Positions 2,898-24,754 of a stretch of 32,017 bases of DNA are shown piece by piece. A program made the position numbers and the translations under genes. Below the pieces are notes generated by a model. It did no database searches and was not told the DNA's origin. It was given only the letters and a program-made list of their open reading frames with translations. Every line of letters begins with the position of its first letter. Position 1 is the stretch's first letter. This DNA is from Anaerolineales bacterium (lineage in GTDB: Bacteria; Chloroflexota; Anaerolineae; 4572-78; NAK82), in NCBI GenBank assembly GCA_024643945.1, contig JAHELX010000010.1:1-32017 (forward strand), read 5' to 3'.

Positions 2898-3644
2898 TCA
2901 TTTGAAGGCGAAAAGCGCGCCCTGGACAATAGGAGTTGAATATGCGCTCTGTTCCAATGTCAAGTATATGCCATCCACTTGATCAGCATCAGTGCGAAAC
3001 GATCTTGCATGTTCTTCTGACCAGAAGAATACCGAATTACGTCAGAATGCGTCAATGATGTTTGGTCCGGTGAATGCCTGCCAGTCTATCAATGGTTCAA
3101 ACACAAGCGGTTCAGCTTCTTCATCCTTGACGCGATATTGCAACTCACTATCCAGCTCAATCTGCATCGGCTGGGCGCAGTGGGCACATTCCGTCATGAT
3201 CGTCACCGACAGGTGTTTTTTCCTTAATCGCCCTTGCACGAAGGGCGCTGCCATCGCATCCTCCGCTCAGGCCGCATACAGCCGCTCACCTGTACTGAAC
3301 CGCAAACGATGGGGTGTGGGATCAACGGTGACAGGATACGCCCAACAAACCGCACCTTGCTCATTTCGGACCAGGAAGAAAAGCTTCTGCTCCAGTTCAT
3401 CCAGGATCTCTTGGGTCCGACCAAGGGGCAAACTTAACTCCTCGGCAATCATCTCTGGCGGGATGGGTGCTCCAATACGCGGCAGTTCTCTGACGACGAA
3501 ATAGCGTACAAGATGGTGGTCACTTGACATAAAACCGAGGCGAGTTTCACTGTGATGTGGGGCTTGGGCTACATGCCCTTCCCATTCTTTACGAGGAATC
3601 TGCATGACGTGGCGTCCTCGTCCCAAGAGAATCGTTTCATTCAT
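2898..3644 (-). CDS. MerB-like (alkylmercury lyase family) selenoprotein with two selenocysteines
   Basis: Read straight through two in-frame TGA codons (3269-3267 and 3044-3042), this frame gives one 248-residue protein. The start ATG (3644) has GGAG 8 nt upstream and lies 19 nt after the oxidoreductase gene. The N-terminal half (about residues 35-110) resembles the winged-helix domain of MerB. The stretch GERLYAA-Sec126-AEDAM aligns with RRLYAWCALDTL around MerB Cys96 and keeps the catalytic Asp (Asp129 = MerB Asp99). The stretch DAF-Sec201-RNSVFFWS..A aligns with SFCCHVHFFAS around MerB Cys159. A CxxC (153/156) lies where MerB has Cys117. Family knowledge: MerB breaks carbon-mercury bonds with Cys96, Asp99 and Cys159. 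Inference: both catalytic thiols are selenols here. A standard gene caller would split this into fragments or call a pseudogene. The substrate could be organomercury or another soft organometal(loid). No Sec machinery genes are in the window. Confidence 0.82.
3012..3044 (-). promoter_or_regulatory. SECIS-like hairpin after the second UGA (Sec201)
   Basis: The UGA is at 3044-3042. After 12 nt comes TTCTTC (3029-3024), the loop TGGTCA (3023-3018) and GAAGAA (3017-3012). The outer loop bases can extend the stem to 8 bp. The loop contains GGU, the signature of the E. coli fdhF SECIS apical loop, and sits about 19-24 nt after the UGA, the canonical distance for SelB binding. Confidence 0.75.
3229..3269 (-). 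promoter_or_regulatory. SECIS-like hairpin after the first UGA (Sec126)
   Basis: The UGA is at 3269-3267. After 19 nt comes a perfect 7-bp stem, CGCCCTT (3247-3241) pairing with AAGGGCG (3235-3229), around a 5-nt loop CGTGC (3240-3236) containing G-U. The loop begins 27 nt after the UGA. Bacterial SECIS elements lie inside the coding sequence with their apical loop about 16-37 nt downstream of the UGA and a conserved G in the loop, so spacing and shape fit. The loop lacks the full GGU seen in the E. coli fdhF element. Confidence 0.65.
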
Positions 3645-3663: not shown

Positions 3664-4503
3664 TCAATCAATGCGTAACGGCCCCCGTTCTATGCACGCC
3701 CGCATCACTCCCAGCTCGTCCGGGGGAACATATTCCATCCACCAGGTTACCCCTGCCTCAGCCAGCGATCGAATATATCCCCGTTCCTCTTCCCAATCAG
3801 CTCGTCGCTGGCTTCCCCCTATGGCGATGTCGTACCCATCCAAGGTGCCTCGTTCTTTCTCCACGTAAGCTTTCAATGCCCGAACGTCTTCAGGCATCAT
3901 ATAATGCTCCTGGTGCTTGTAAAGGCAGGACCCATCCCAATGGGCGGCTCGTCGCATGGGACCTTGGAGGGGGTAGCCCCCGCCAACCCAGATCGGTATT
4001 CGGGGAGTTTGTACCGGTTTGGGCAAGAGCTTCACTGCTTGTACGTGGTAATACTCGCCTTGATAAGCGAATGACTCACCGCTCCACAAGCCTACCAGCA
4101 CTTCCAACGCCTCATCCAGCATCCTGGCGCGCCTTTTGACGTCCATCTCCTCTCCAAAGTGCGTGAAACTTACATCATCTGATATGGTATCACCTAAACC
4201 CACACCCAGGATCAGTCGTCCTTTGGATAAGTGGTCAAGAGTGACTGTCTCGCGGGCTACCTTCCACGGTCGCCGGCGAGCGAGAGGTGTTACCAGAGTG
4301 CCCAACCGGATACGCTCCGTCCGAACCGCCATCGCTGCGAGCGCAACCCACGCATCGTACGTGGGGGTGTCTTGGTCACCTTGCCAGACGATATAGTCTT
4401 CGAGAAAGATGCCGTCCCACCCTGCTTGTTCTGCAAGAAAAGCAAACTCTGCAAGTGTTTGGGGGTCAACGCCTCCATTCGGAAGATTAAGGCCATAAAG
4501 CAT
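3664..4503 (-). CDS. Luciferase-family (LLM class) flavin/F420-dependent oxidoreductase
   Basis: This 279-residue protein has the single TIM-barrel domain of bacterial luciferase-like monooxygenases and F420-dependent oxidoreductases. Typical pieces are YGLNLPNGG at the N-terminus, AEQAGWDGIFLEDY, RIRLGTLVTPLARRRPWKVA, LSKGRLILGVGLG, LLPKPVQTPRIPIWVGG and RRAAHWDGSCLY. The length is normal for the family (about 280-350). The cofactor (FMN or F420) and substrate are not decidable by eye. The ATG at 4503 has GGAGG 8 nt upstream; an upstream in-frame TTG (4524) has no such site. It is followed after 19 nt by the double-Sec MerB-like gene, so the two are very likely co-transcribed and functionally linked. 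The promoter lies in the 82-bp repeat at 4576-4657. Confidence 0.85.
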   Translation of the reverse strand: MLYGLNLPNGGVDPQTLAEFAFLAEQAGWDGIFLEDYIVWQGDQDTPTYDAWVALAAMAVRTERIRLGTLVTPLARRRPWKVARETVTLDHLSKGRLILGVGLGDTISDDVSFTHFGEEMDVKRRARMLDEALEVLVGLWSGESFAYQGEYYHVQAVKLLPKPVQTPRIPIWVGGGYPLQGPMRRAAHWDGSCLYKHQEHYMMPEDVRALKAYVEKERGTLDGYDIAIGGSQRRADWEEERGYIRSLAEAGVTWWMEYVPPDELGVMRACIERGPLRID

Positions 4504-4575
4504 TTGGAGATCCTCCGTGGGCAATCATACAGCCGCCGCCCAATGTACGGCGGGCAGCAGCCCGTCTCAAGCCAG

Positions 4576-10691: not shown

Positions 10692-10946
10692 ATGTACGTT
10701 TACATCATAAAACTGGTGACTCACGACAGCTTTGCTATCAAGCACGTATGCGCCACACCTGAGAAGGCTATTGAGATGTCGATGGATGCAGGCCACAAGT
10801 ACTTGCTCACTGGTGGCTCCAAACGTGTGGCAGCCGACCGAGATTCCCTGGCAAAGCAACTCCTCGACGGGAAGGAGTTCTACCTCGCAAACACGCCAGA
10901 TTGGTCGGGTGACCTCATCTTTGTCTCAAGGTATGCCGTGGTGTAG
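10692..10946 (+). CDS. Small protein of unknown function
   Basis: The frame encodes 84 residues starting MYVYIIKLVTHDSFAIKH. The ATG at 10692 has GGAGG 5 nt upstream; an in-frame ATG at 10632 would fall near the expected transcript start and has no ribosome binding site. The protein is soluble-looking and mixed alpha/beta, with no recognised motif. It is divergent from the two-component operon across a 240-bp regulatory region. I cannot assign a role. Confidence 0.5.
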   Translation: MYVYIIKLVTHDSFAIKHVCATPEKAIEMSMDAGHKYLLTGGSKRVAADRDSLAKQLLDGKEFYLANTPDWSGDLIFVSRYAVV

Positions 10947-10989
10947 GACTGCGTCACAGTCTACTGCCTTGATCTGGACACTACCCATA

Positions 10990-11250
10990 CTTATTCGACG
11001 GACGTACATACCCAAACCGGGGACGACGGAGAAGCGCGGCTTGGGCATACCGGTGATGGCCGACTGGGCGTGTCAAGCCCTGGTGAAACAGGCGCTAGAG
11101 CCGGAGTGGGAAGCCCAATTCGAGCCAAACTCGTATGGCTTTCGCCCAGGCCGCTCGGCGCATGACACGATAGAGGCGATCTTCAATGCGATCTGCTTGA
11201 AACCCAAGTTCGTATTGGACGCCGACATCGAAAAGTGCTTCGACTTTTGA
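10990..11250 (+). pseudogene. Fragment of a group II intron reverse transcriptase/maturase
   Basis: About 85 codons read RRTYIPKPGTTEKRGLGIP, then ALVKQALEPEWEAQFEPNSY and GFRPGRSAHDTIEAIFNAI, ending DADIEKCFDF-stop. This matches reverse-transcriptase blocks 1-2 of LtrA-type intron-encoded proteins, where the sequence should continue as CFDRINH. Both ends are missing: there is no N-terminal part, and no YxDD catalytic block, maturase or endonuclease domain. The right break falls only a few bases before the ribosome binding site of the next gene. It is a dead remnant of a past intron insertion or rearrangement. Confidence 0.8.
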
Positions 11251-21477: not shown

Positions 21478-23844
21478 TCAAAATAACTGGTGCTCTGTCC
21501 GGGCGATGATTTCGTCTTGCAGGGCTTGGCCCAGGTCGCAGAAATAGTCGCTGTAACCAGCCACGCGGACGATCAAGTCCCGGTACTGCTCGGGGTTCTG
21601 CTGCGCAGCTCGCAGTGTGCCAGCGTCAACCACGTTGAACTGGATGTGGTGACCATCGAGCTTGAAATAAGTTCGTATCAGTTGCACCAACTTGTCCAGG
21701 CCTTCATCGTTTTGAAACAACTGGGGGGTGAATTTTTGGTTGAGCAGCGTACCCCCGGTGCGCACGTGATCCATCTTGGCCACTGACTTGATGACTGCCG
21801 TCGGGCCACGCCGGTCTGCGCCCTGCACCGGCGAAATGCCTTCGGAGAGGGGCAGCTCGGCTTTTCGTCCGTCGGGAGTGGCTCCAATCACCGATCCAAA
21901 GTAGACGTGAACCGTGGTCGGAAGTAAGTTGATGCGGTAAGTTCCGCCCCGGGTGTTCTTGCGGCCGTCGATGGCATTGAAATAGGCATTGAACACAGAT
22001 ACCATCACCTCGTCCGCGTAGTCGTCATCGTTACCGTACCGGGGTGTTTTATTGAGCAGCATCTGGCGCACCCGCTCGTGCCCCTCAAAATTGTCCTGCA
22101 GGGTAGCCAGCAATTCCTCCAGCGTGAGTGTCTTCTGGTCGAAGACGTGATATTTGATGGCCGTCAGCGCATCGGCCATCGTGCCCAGGCCCACCCCTTG
22201 AATGTAGCTGGTGTCATAGCGCGTGCCGCCGTCGTGATAATCCTTGCCTTTGGCGATACAGTCGTCAATCAGCAGCGAAAGGAAGGGCGCCGGCATATAT
22301 CGGGCGTAGAGCCGCTCGACGACATTGTTGCCGCGTATCTTGATGTCCACAAAGCAGTTTAGCTGCTTTTGGTAAGCCTCGAACAAGTCTTCAAAGGTCT
22401 CAAATTGGGTAGGGTCTCCTGTTTCCAGCCCAATCCTGCGGCCAGTTCGGGGGTCGAAGCCGTTGTTGAGGGTGATCTCCAACACCTTGGGCATGTTGAA
22501 GTAGCCGGTCAGGTTGTAATTCTCCTTACCAAAGGCACCGGTCTCCACGCAGCCGCTGGTGCCGCCGCAGCGGGCGTCTACGACGGATTTGCCCATGCGG
22601 ATCATCTCTTGGACCACGACGTCGGTGTTGAAGACTGAGGGCTGTCCAAAGCCGGTGCGGATGATTTTGGCCGCTCTCTTGATGAACCTGTCGGGATTCT
22701 TCTTGCTGACCTGAATCGATGAACTGGGCTGTAACAGCCGCATTTCCTCGATCACGTCCAGGATCAAAAAACTGACCTCATTGACCGCGTCGGACCCATC
22801 CGGCTTGACGCCTCCTATGTTGATCTGGGCAAAGTCGGTGTACGTGCTGCTTTCGGCGGCAGTGACCCCAACTTTGGGCGGCGCTGGCTGGTTGTTGAAC
22901 TTGATCCAGAAACACTGCAGCAGTTCTTGGGCCTGCTCGCGGGTGAGCGTCCCTTCTGCCAACCCCTTCTTGTAAAAGGGATACAGGTGCTGATCCAGCT
23001 TGCCGGGGTTGAAGGCGTCCCAGGGGTTGAGCTCTATGGTGACGCCGAGGTGAACGAACCAATAATAGTGTAGCGCCTCCCAAAAATCTCGCGGGGCGTG
23101 GGCGGGGACGTGGGAACAAACCTCGGCGATGCGTTCCAGTTCCTGCTTTCTCCCCGGGTCCGGCTCATGCCCCGCCAGCTCGCGCGCTTTTTCTGAGTGA
23201 CGCTCGGCAAAGCGGATCAAAGCGTCGGCGCAGATGTCCATGGCTTTGAGTTGTTCTTGTTTGTCGTAGGCCTCGGGGTCGTTAAAGAAATCCAGGCGCT
23301 CCAGGCTATGTTGAATATCCTGCCTGAAGTCGATAAACCCCTTGTGGTAAATCTTGTCGTCCAGGACGGTATGGCCGGGAGAGCGTTGCTCCATGAATTC
23401 GGTGAAAACGCCGGCCTCATATGCCGCTCTCCATTCCTCCGTCATCTCCTGAAAGATAAGCTCGCGCATGGTCTTGCCCCGCCAGAAGGGGATAATGGTT
23501 TCCTGGTACACCTGGCGGGCCGCGGGGCTGACGGAGAAGGAGATCTTCTCGCGGGAATTTAGGATGTCCAGGTCTTCCAGGCTATGACAACACAGCTCGG
23601 GATAAGTCGGCGCAGCCTTGGGAGCGGGACCTTTTTCGCCGACGATGAGTTCGCCCTCGTTGATGCAAATGGTTTTGTGTTCCAGCAGATACTGAAAGGC
23701 AAGAGCACGACGCACAGGCGCAGACACCGGGCCTAAATCCTGCCGGTAGAATTCGGTCATCAGTTCTGCTCTCTCGGTCGAAATGCTGGGGATGGCATCG
23801 AGGCTTTGCTTCCTTAGCCGGGAAACTCTTTCGCTCGTGGACAT
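21478..23844 (-). CDS. hypD: Glycyl radical enzyme, trans-4-hydroxy-L-proline dehydratase (HypD)
   Basis: The 788-residue protein is a glycyl radical enzyme. The thiyl cysteine and general base lie in GGTSGCVETGAFGKE (Cys432, Glu434), and the radical glycine in VRVAGYSDYF (Gly763). As I remember the Clostridioides difficile HypD (Cys434, Gly765), the resemblance is close throughout: VGEKG..APTYPE.CCH, ELN.WDAF.PG.LDQHL, KFNNQPAPPKVG, RVAGYSD. HypD dehydrates trans-4-hydroxy-L-proline to pyrroline-5-carboxylate in anaerobes. The neighbouring activase, two Xaa-Pro peptidases and a peptide transporter support this role. The ATG at 23844 is preceded by AGGAGGG. Other glycyl radical dehydratases or lyases are less likely but not excluded without an alignment. 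Confidence 0.85.
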   Translation of the reverse strand: MSTSERVSRLRKQSLDAIPSISTERAELMTEFYRQDLGPVSAPVRRALAFQYLLEHKTICINEGELIVGEKGPAPKAAPTYPELCCHSLEDLDILNSREKISFSVSPAARQVYQETIIPFWRGKTMRELIFQEMTEEWRAAYEAGVFTEFMEQRSPGHTVLDDKIYHKGFIDFRQDIQHSLERLDFFNDPEAYDKQEQLKAMDICADALIRFAERHSEKARELAGHEPDPGRKQELERIAEVCSHVPAHAPRDFWEALHYYWFVHLGVTIELNPWDAFNPGKLDQHLYPFYKKGLAEGTLTREQAQELLQCFWIKFNNQPAPPKVGVTAAESSTYTDFAQINIGGVKPDGSDAVNEVSFLILDVIEEMRLLQPSSSIQVSKKNPDRFIKRAAKIIRTGFGQPSVFNTDVVVQEMIRMGKSVVDARCGGTSGCVETGAFGKENYNLTGYFNMPKVLEITLNNGFDPRTGRRIGLETGDPTQFETFEDLFEAYQKQLNCFVDIKIRGNNVVERLYARYMPAPFLSLLIDDCIAKGKDYHDGGTRYDTSYIQGVGLGTMADALTAIKYHVFDQKTLTLEELLATLQDNFEGHERVRQMLLNKTPRYGNDDDYADEVMVSVFNAYFNAIDGRKNTRGGTYRINLLPTTVHVYFGSVIGATPDGRKAELPLSEGISPVQGADRRGPTAVIKSVAKMDHVRTGGTLLNQKFTPQLFQNDEGLDKLVQLIRTYFKLDGHHIQFNVVDAGTLRAAQQNPEQYRDLIVRVAGYSDYFCDLGQALQDEIIARTEHQLF

Positions 23845-23848
23845 GGTG

Positions 23849-24754
23849 TCACCCTCCTATTTTCACTTGCAGACCAAATCCTTTAATCATCTCTACGATC
23901 TCAGCCATCCTGCCCTCTGAAGGAGGGCGGACTTCGGACAAGCCGTAAGCCTTGTTCAGGCGGTGATACTTTTCGGTACCTGTCTGGTGATAAGGCAGAA
24001 TGTCTATCCGATTCAGGTGGGGCAAGGCAGCCGCAAAGGCGCTTACCTGATGGAGGTTTTCGTCGTCGTCGTTGATGCCGGGGATGATGGGCACACGTAG
24101 AACAATGTCGTGCCCCCGCCGCGAAAGCGCCTGCAAATTCTGCAGGATCAACTCGTTGGACACCCCGGTGAACTTGCGATGTCTGGCATCATCCATCAGC
24201 TTGAGATCGTATAGAAACAGATCCACATACCCCCGTATGCTGTCCAATGTTTCCCACCTGGCAAAGCCGCAGGTATCCAGGGTCGTGTGAATCTCCCTCT
24301 CCCGGCAAGCCCGGAGCAGGGCCAGCAAGAAATCTCGCTGCAGCAGGGGCTCTCCGCCAGAAAAGGTCACCCCTCCACCCGATTCGTCGTAGAAGACGAT
24401 GTCTCGCTCGATTTCGGTCATCACCTGGGCCACCGTCATTTCCCGGCCCACGATCTCGCGCGCTTCGGCGTAGCAGACTTCAACGCAGTCCCCGCAGAGC
24501 GTGCAGCTTTCGCCATCGGTGACCATAAAATCACCGTTTGAGGAGATCGCCTGCTGCGAACAAGTCGCCTCACAAGCACCACAACGGATGCAGCGATTCT
24601 CTCGGAATACCAGTTCCCGCGCCCGGGCCTGGCTCTCGGGATTGTGGCACCACCAACAAGTGAGAGGACATCCTTTGAGGAAAACCGTGGTGCGAATTCC
24701 CGGACCGTCGTGAATGGAGAATTTTTTTACATCAAAAACAGTTCCAGCGATCAA
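23849..24754 (-). CDS. hypE: Glycyl-radical-enzyme activating radical SAM protein (HypE)
   Basis: The 301-residue activase has the radical SAM motif GCPLTCWWCHNPE (Cys29, Cys33, Cys36), an inserted ferredoxin-like domain with two [4Fe-4S] motifs (CIRCGACEATC and CTLCGDCVEVC) and the SAM-binding block GGGVTFSGGEPLLQ. It should install the glycyl radical on HypD using SAM under anaerobic conditions. The start is TTG at 24754: the conserved N-terminus GTVFDVKKFSIHDGPGIRTT begins within four residues of it, leaving no room for a later start. Its 3' end carries the ribosome binding site of hypD (4 nt apart), so the pair is tightly coupled. Confidence 0.92.
   Translation of the reverse strand: MIAGTVFDVKKFSIHDGPGIRTTVFLKGCPLTCWWCHNPESQARARELVFRENRCIRCGACEATCSQQAISSNGDFMVTDGESCTLCGDCVEVCYAEAREIVGREMTVAQVMTEIERDIVFYDESGGGVTFSGGEPLLQRDFLLALLRACREREIHTTLDTCGFARWETLDSIRGYVDLFLYDLKLMDDARHRKFTGVSNELILQNLQALSRRGHDIVLRVPIIPGINDDDENLHQVSAFAAALPHLNRIDILPYHQTGTEKYHRLNKAYGLSEVRPPSEGRMAEIVEMIKGFGLQVKIGG

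Follow-up and report, generated by a model that had tools for sequence, protein, structure and literature searches.

A MerB-like protein family with predicted selenocysteine at both catalytic positions

Here we describe a gene for a MerB-like protein in which both catalytic cysteines appear to be replaced by selenocysteine (Sec). The gene lies on the minus strand of a 32,017-nucleotide stretch of DNA (hereafter, the window) from an Anaerolineales bacterium (assembly GCA_024643945.1, contig JAHELX010000010.1). Sequence comparison strongly supports Sec at both catalytic positions of this MerB-family member, and the predicted protein is likely a Sec–Asp–Sec lyase for an organometal, probably an organomercurial. 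Sec at both positions had been proposed in a sequence-only reading of this DNA; the proposal is now supported by a pair of in-frame TGA codons in 79 of 80 related loci, two constrained hairpins, a natural cysteine form of the gene (locus L029) and Sec machinery in the genomes of most relatives. For its function, the same reading had put forward either an extreme organomercurial lyase or an enzyme for some other soft electrophile, both of which are still predictions. The features concerned are as follows.

2898..3644, minus strand: two-Sec MerB-like gene, 248 amino acids plus stop (ATG 3644-3642, stop TGA 2900-2898), with full-length homologues
3267..3269, minus strand: in-frame TGA 1 (codon 126), matching MerB Cys96 in position; TGA in 79/80 loci, TGC in 1/80
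3258..3260, minus strand: codon of Asp129, at the place of MerB Asp99; Asp in 80/80 loci
3042..3044, minus strand: in-frame TGA 2 (codon 201), matching MerB Cys159 in position; TGA in 80/80 loci
3230..3246, minus strand: hairpin 1 (GCCCTT-CGTGC-AAGGGC), resembling a Sec insertion sequence (SECIS), apical loop 26 nt past TGA 1
3012..3029, minus strand: SECIS-like hairpin 2 (TTCTTCT-GGTC-AGAAGAA), apical loop 19 nt past TGA 2

The frame running from 3644 to 2898 comprises 249 codons; TGA occurs inside it exactly twice, at codons 126 and 201, and closes it as codon 249. Under the standard code the protein ends at residue 125 (134 amino acids in the open reading frame (ORF) listing, which counts from an upstream TTG). 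The MerB family model PF03243 matches residues 106–232 with 55 bits (cut-off 27) and spans both TGAs, in agreement with the earlier claim that MerB homology continues across them. Two comparisons place the TGAs at the catalytic cysteines, as also claimed before: in a pairwise, weak match to MerB2 (5c17; E 0.02) the Cys residues of AWCA and GTCKQ lie opposite U126 and U201, and when 27 members of the MerB family are aligned with Cys written for TGA, a set that takes in the Cys MerBs L081, L082 and L101 (classic by motif), positions 126 and 201 are the sole invariant columns. The catalytic Asp was likewise correctly located three residues past the first TGA. Of the two Cys and the Asp at +3 that characterize the MerB family, the Asp is thus kept and both Cys places are TGA, predicted to encode Sec; a predicted model of the two-Sec protein contains the MerB fold. 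The NCBIfam MerB equivalogs NF009710 and NF033555 gave 49.3 and 41.6 bits against cut-offs of 193 and 200, and among the 80 sequences of alignment A2 no NCBIfam E-value was better than 1.4e-17.

When named genome contigs were searched with an alignment of 30 rows, 117 relatives came up, of which the best 80 were kept (L001–L080); L009 and L036 matched in part only, the two partial matches covering residues 24–248 and 43–247. TGA occupies both places in 79 of these 80 loci, with no further in-frame stop ahead of the end in any, the lone exception being L029 (Bryobacterales), in which site 1 is TGC. The host records name Chloroflexota, Desulfobacterota, Acidobacteriota, KSB1, Zixibacteria, Rokubacteria, Binatia and Abyssobacteria, among others. 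Two protein searches (best 120 of 213 and best 120 of 398 hits) gave 203 homologous proteins, in which the same positions are rendered differently: 120 break off where TGA 1 would lie (alignment ending at residues 123–125), 23 carry Cys at 126 and run to about residue 200, both places are Trp in 49, and 7 show other states. Apparently, the Trp pairs, which look like the product of gene calls under code 4, and the early ends stand for TGA. No Cys/Cys member of the window gene's own subfamily was seen among the 203 listed homologues. Homologues with TGA or Cys at both columns, to which the sequence-only reading had pointed as a check, do exist in the form of the 79 TGA/TGA loci and the aligned Cys MerBs. 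As for spread on mobile replicons, there was no relative among viral contigs, and the four plasmid records listed were all Staphylococcus merB with about 30% identity.

Both TGAs are followed by conserved hairpins. Across 81 sequences, the six pairs of hairpin 1 are complete in 73 and its loop is CGTGC in 79, while the seven pairs of hairpin 2 are complete in all 81 and its loop is GGTC in 80; compensatory variants were seen in both stems. GGUC is also the loop of the Escherichia coli fdhF SECIS. Among 74 conserved columns with synonymous choice, the ten most frozen codons (residues 134–138, 206, 207 and 209–211; homozygosity 0.82–1.00, next column 0.64) all fall inside the two hairpins, residue 208 being a Trp without synonymous choice. 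The chance of such a placement is 1.4e-12, a rough guide only, as the hairpins had been seen before the count. When codons were redrawn synonymously from each gene's usage, a full stem 1 arose in 4.5% of draws (observed in 73/80) and a full stem 2 in 34.8% (observed in 80/80), so stem 2 follows partly from the amino acids; L036 was left out of the model alignment and the redraw because of a frame break in its match. L029 is a natural control: in this gene GTA CTG GCG replaces the GTG CAA GGG of nearly all others, so that hairpin 1 is gone, whereas hairpin 2 behind the kept TGA is intact. The Cys form has therefore lost only its own hairpin. A scan of the window and the gene against Rfam gave no match, whether judged by gathering score or by an E-value of up to 5. 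In loop, stem, spacing and the G within the first two loop bases, the hairpins fit the bacterial SECIS rules as given in a review (PMC13188914).

Next, the host genomes of L001–L050 were scanned for SelB, tRNA-Sec, HgcA and MerA. SelB exceeded its cut-off in 41 of the 50 and tRNA-Sec its gathering score in 42, in 40 of these with at least 61 bits. Taken as either SelB over cut-off or tRNA-Sec of at least 61 bits, Sec machinery was detected in 45 hosts; five have neither, and the record titles describe these genomes as metagenome-assembled, a kind of assembly in which genes are often missing. Among genomes sampled from the class of genome G002, the family occurs in 9 of 298 genomes, all nine with two TGAs (one with a TAG besides), and SelB was found in 9/9 carriers versus 230/289 others. 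In the class of genome G029, 4 of 299 genomes carry the family (two TGAs in three of them, a single one in the L029 gene), and SelB was found in 4/4 carriers versus 208/295 others.

MerB-like genes with TGA extend beyond this family. PF03243 exceeded its cut-off in 36 of the 298 genomes of the G002 class, and most of the matches listed have one or two TGAs. One further lineage, with Cys, Asp and Sec in the triad (C-D-U; motif NCxWD...TU; 17 aligned, for example L085 and L094), resembles the window family in having TGA at site 2 and the GGTC loop in equal register, but has Cys at site 1 and a longer C-terminus and stands apart in the tree. Another, represented by L108 and L109, likewise has TGA at both catalytic places and the GGTC loop at site 2, but carries Glu for the catalytic Asp and a different sequence past TGA 1, and its place in the tree is nearer to C-D-U. 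Its two genes are:

L108, 1201-1995, plus strand: second type of two-TGA MerB-like gene, Glu for catalytic Asp
L109, 517-2184, minus strand: second type of two-TGA MerB-like gene, Glu for catalytic Asp

The L109 protein continues into a long C-terminal part that is ATPase-like by eye.

In 19 of 19 Sec genes from these other lineages (excluding L104, which is incomplete, and L106, which has unreadable bases), GGTC lies at +20 to +23 past the site-2 TGA, as in the window family; beneath this loop, 18 genes form 5 to 8 pairs without interruption and L098 forms 3. In eight MerB-family genes whose site 2 is Cys, the loop is a different one and the stem has 0 to 2 pairs; one of the eight, L082, has a different stem slightly further downstream. 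The GGTC hairpin common to the Sec lineages, which was not found in the eight Cys genes, suggests that Sec arose once, ancestrally, at the Cys159 place and was probably added at the Cys96 place in two lineages. A tree of 65 rows, covering part of the family, separates the two two-TGA lineages, although long branches leave the deep order unsure. Two single genes depart from these patterns. L092 (1291-1965, plus strand; C-D-U type) has an extra in-frame TGA 16 residues past site 2, where many relatives have Cys, and L084 (1294-1983, plus strand), with Cys at site 2 and no hairpin, groups weakly inside the Sec lineage, as if Sec had reverted to Cys.

The family was then compared with described systems. 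Classic MerB (PF03243; PDB 3f0o, 3f2f and 5c17) has Cys at both places where the window protein has predicted Sec, and the window protein shares 17–20% identity with the solved MerBs. The window protein also differs from classic MerB in scoring below both NCBIfam MerB cut-offs, and its family in the rarity of MerA, which exceeded its cut-off in 1 of 50 hosts. A MerB-family selenoprotein has been reported: SaoL (NF040728), the MerB-like organometallic lyase of the SAO system, which a table of the same review lists with one Sec, in the motif CU (PMC13188914). The window protein, by comparison, has two TGAs and scores 43.6 bits with NF040728 (cut-off 140), and no Sao model was among the families listed, at most 25 per list, for ten of the main window ORFs. 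Several other double selenoproteins appear in the passages of the review that were consulted, none of them a two-Sec MerB (PMC13188914), and none was met in the literature searched, in which the Haft papers on SaoL and Tso were represented through that review. The earlier remark that no MerB with two Sec residues is known to have been described holds to this extent, but the protein is not solitary, with 79 of 80 loci alike, and a one-Sec relative, SaoL, has already been published. On sequence grounds, we regard the selenoprotein nature of the family as well supported, with its function predicted only. The fold occurs as Cys–Asp–Cys, Cys–Asp–Sec and Sec–Asp–Sec, where Sec is predicted.

These comparisons allow us to propose how the protein may work. 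UGA would be read as Sec at both sites by SelB acting with two separate SECIS elements in one reading frame. Sec201 (Cys159 place) and Sec126 (Cys96 place) might then hold the metal as selenolates, while Asp129 might give a proton to the leaving carbon, so that the carbon–metal bond is protonated and the metal ion freed. The bis-selenolate metal product could be handed to small thiols or selenide, a step suggested by the scarcity of MerA in the hosts. Two Sec residues would likely bind mercury, or a comparable soft metal, with unusual strength, and, from the analysis as a whole, organomercurials would be the most likely substrate. Small selones that mimic organomercurial lyases are reported to outpace their sulfur analogues (PMC11639659).

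Around the gene, the window offers one candidate partner:

3664..4524, minus strand: luciferase-like (LLM class) oxidoreductase, 19 bases upstream of the two-Sec gene

It is possibly an operon partner in this genome only and was not seen as a conserved neighbour in the 80 loci. Indeed, ORFs called mechanically with a minimum of 90 amino acids within 10 kb of the 80 loci revealed no conserved gene partner. The best neighbour clusters were formed by regulators, one of MerR type lying immediately upstream in 6 loci and one of MarR type present in 4, in 3 of them immediately upstream. Upstream ORFs on the same strand within 150 bases were present in 36 of 76 cases and differ in kind; 31 upstream neighbours, drawn from the 42 same-strand ones listed, were scanned and comprised 6 MerR-type and 3 MarR-type regulators. 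The window contains no tRNA genes.

Downstream of the gene, nested inverted repeats at 2613-2876 resemble a small non-coding mobile element, with these arms:

2613-2627 and 2862-2876: inverted-repeat arms of 15 nt, 93% complementary
2700-2717 and 2825-2842: inverted-repeat arms of 18 nt, perfect

Elsewhere in the window, a fragment of a group II intron reverse transcriptase/maturase (10732-11247, plus strand; TIGR04416, 102 bits, cut-off 300) directly precedes an F420-type LLM oxidoreductase. The stretch 21478-24754 on the minus strand encodes a glycyl radical enzyme, trans-4-hydroxy-L-proline dehydratase (NF043068, 1366 bits), together with an ORF directly upstream of the dehydratase (23849-24754) that by eye resembles its radical-SAM activase.

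Several observations weigh against a two-Sec mercury lyase. Some bear on Sec itself: Ser/Cys at the two sites in 3 and Gly/Leu in 1 of the 203 listed homologues; a tRNA-Sec gathering score that was also reached in 5 of 14 control genomes; and a high base rate of SelB (239/298 and 212/299), given which the joint chance of finding it in 13/13 carriers is 0.033. Others bear on the hairpins of the window gene. Against shuffled sequences, the site 2 region shows no gain in folding (z 0.02 and -0.24) and the site 1 region a modest one (z -1.67 and -1.93). The conserved hairpin is not the most stable structure predicted for the 48 nt starting at TGA 1, and site 2 reaches -9.4 kcal/mol over 48 nt but about -7 when shorter segments are folded, compared with a published limit of -7.5. 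The remainder concern mercury: none of the 80 loci showed a mer gene next to the MerB-like gene, and MerA is rare, as noted above, so the mercury role rests on fold and residues. MerA matches at E 1e-90 or better were found in 43 of 50 hosts, but also in 11 of 14 control genomes, and are thus mostly MerA relatives. A hint in favour of mercury comes from HgcA, the mercury-methylation protein, which exceeded its cut-off in 12 of 50 hosts; in the G002 class it occurs in 2/9 carriers versus 15/289 others (p 0.087), and its link to the two-Sec family is suggestive only.

Other readings explain part of these data. The same two-Sec protein might act on a different soft electrophile, for example organotin, a methylated form of arsenic or antimony, or an alkyl halide, or might simply sequester a metal, which would suit the lack of recognized mercury genes nearby, the single host with MerA, the failure of the window protein to pass any NCBIfam equivalog cut-off, and MerR- and MarR-type regulators fit for many stresses; the MerB fold and the conserved X-x-x-D...X layout favour carbon–metal cleavage instead, and the HgcA counts hint at mercury, so we hold this alternative to be possible but unlikely. 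A redox or sensor protein built on the MerB scaffold, signalling through a diselenide or a bound metal without catalysis, is improbable: the winged-helix part belongs to MerB itself, and the protonolysis Asp, which a mere sensor would not need, is present in 80/80 loci. That TGA encodes Trp or another residue under an altered code, or that the gene is a pseudogene, is very hard to sustain. The Trp pairs in 49 listed proteins would agree with such a code, but they are read as code-4 gene calls; the upstream gene and the two-Sec gene both terminate with TGA, the conserved Trp101 and Trp208 are coded by TGG, the TGAs sit at both catalytic Cys places in nearly all loci, whose frames are otherwise free of stops up to the end, and frame and hairpins are conserved. 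An altered genetic code was rejected on this evidence, and a pseudogene or sequencing error was rejected on the recurrence of both TGAs in the 79 loci.

Returning to the two-Sec lyase, a broader and much more tentative scenario, which we think may well not hold in full, is a selenium-MerB superfamily that began with one ancestral SECIS at the Cys159 place and later gained Sec at both. It would serve MerA-independent demethylation at very low mercury by anaerobes, some of them HgcA methylmercury producers, and would include the first known Sec–Asp–Sec lyase. Independently of this scenario, Sec at both catalytic places of a known active site would provide a rare test of selenium against sulfur. 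Surveys of organomercury breakdown that use annotated merB could miss the family through shortened database entries, since most of the listed homologues end at TGA 1 and 23 more near TGA 2. Finally, if the enzyme does cleave methylmercury, it would bear directly on methylmercury release from anoxic sediments.
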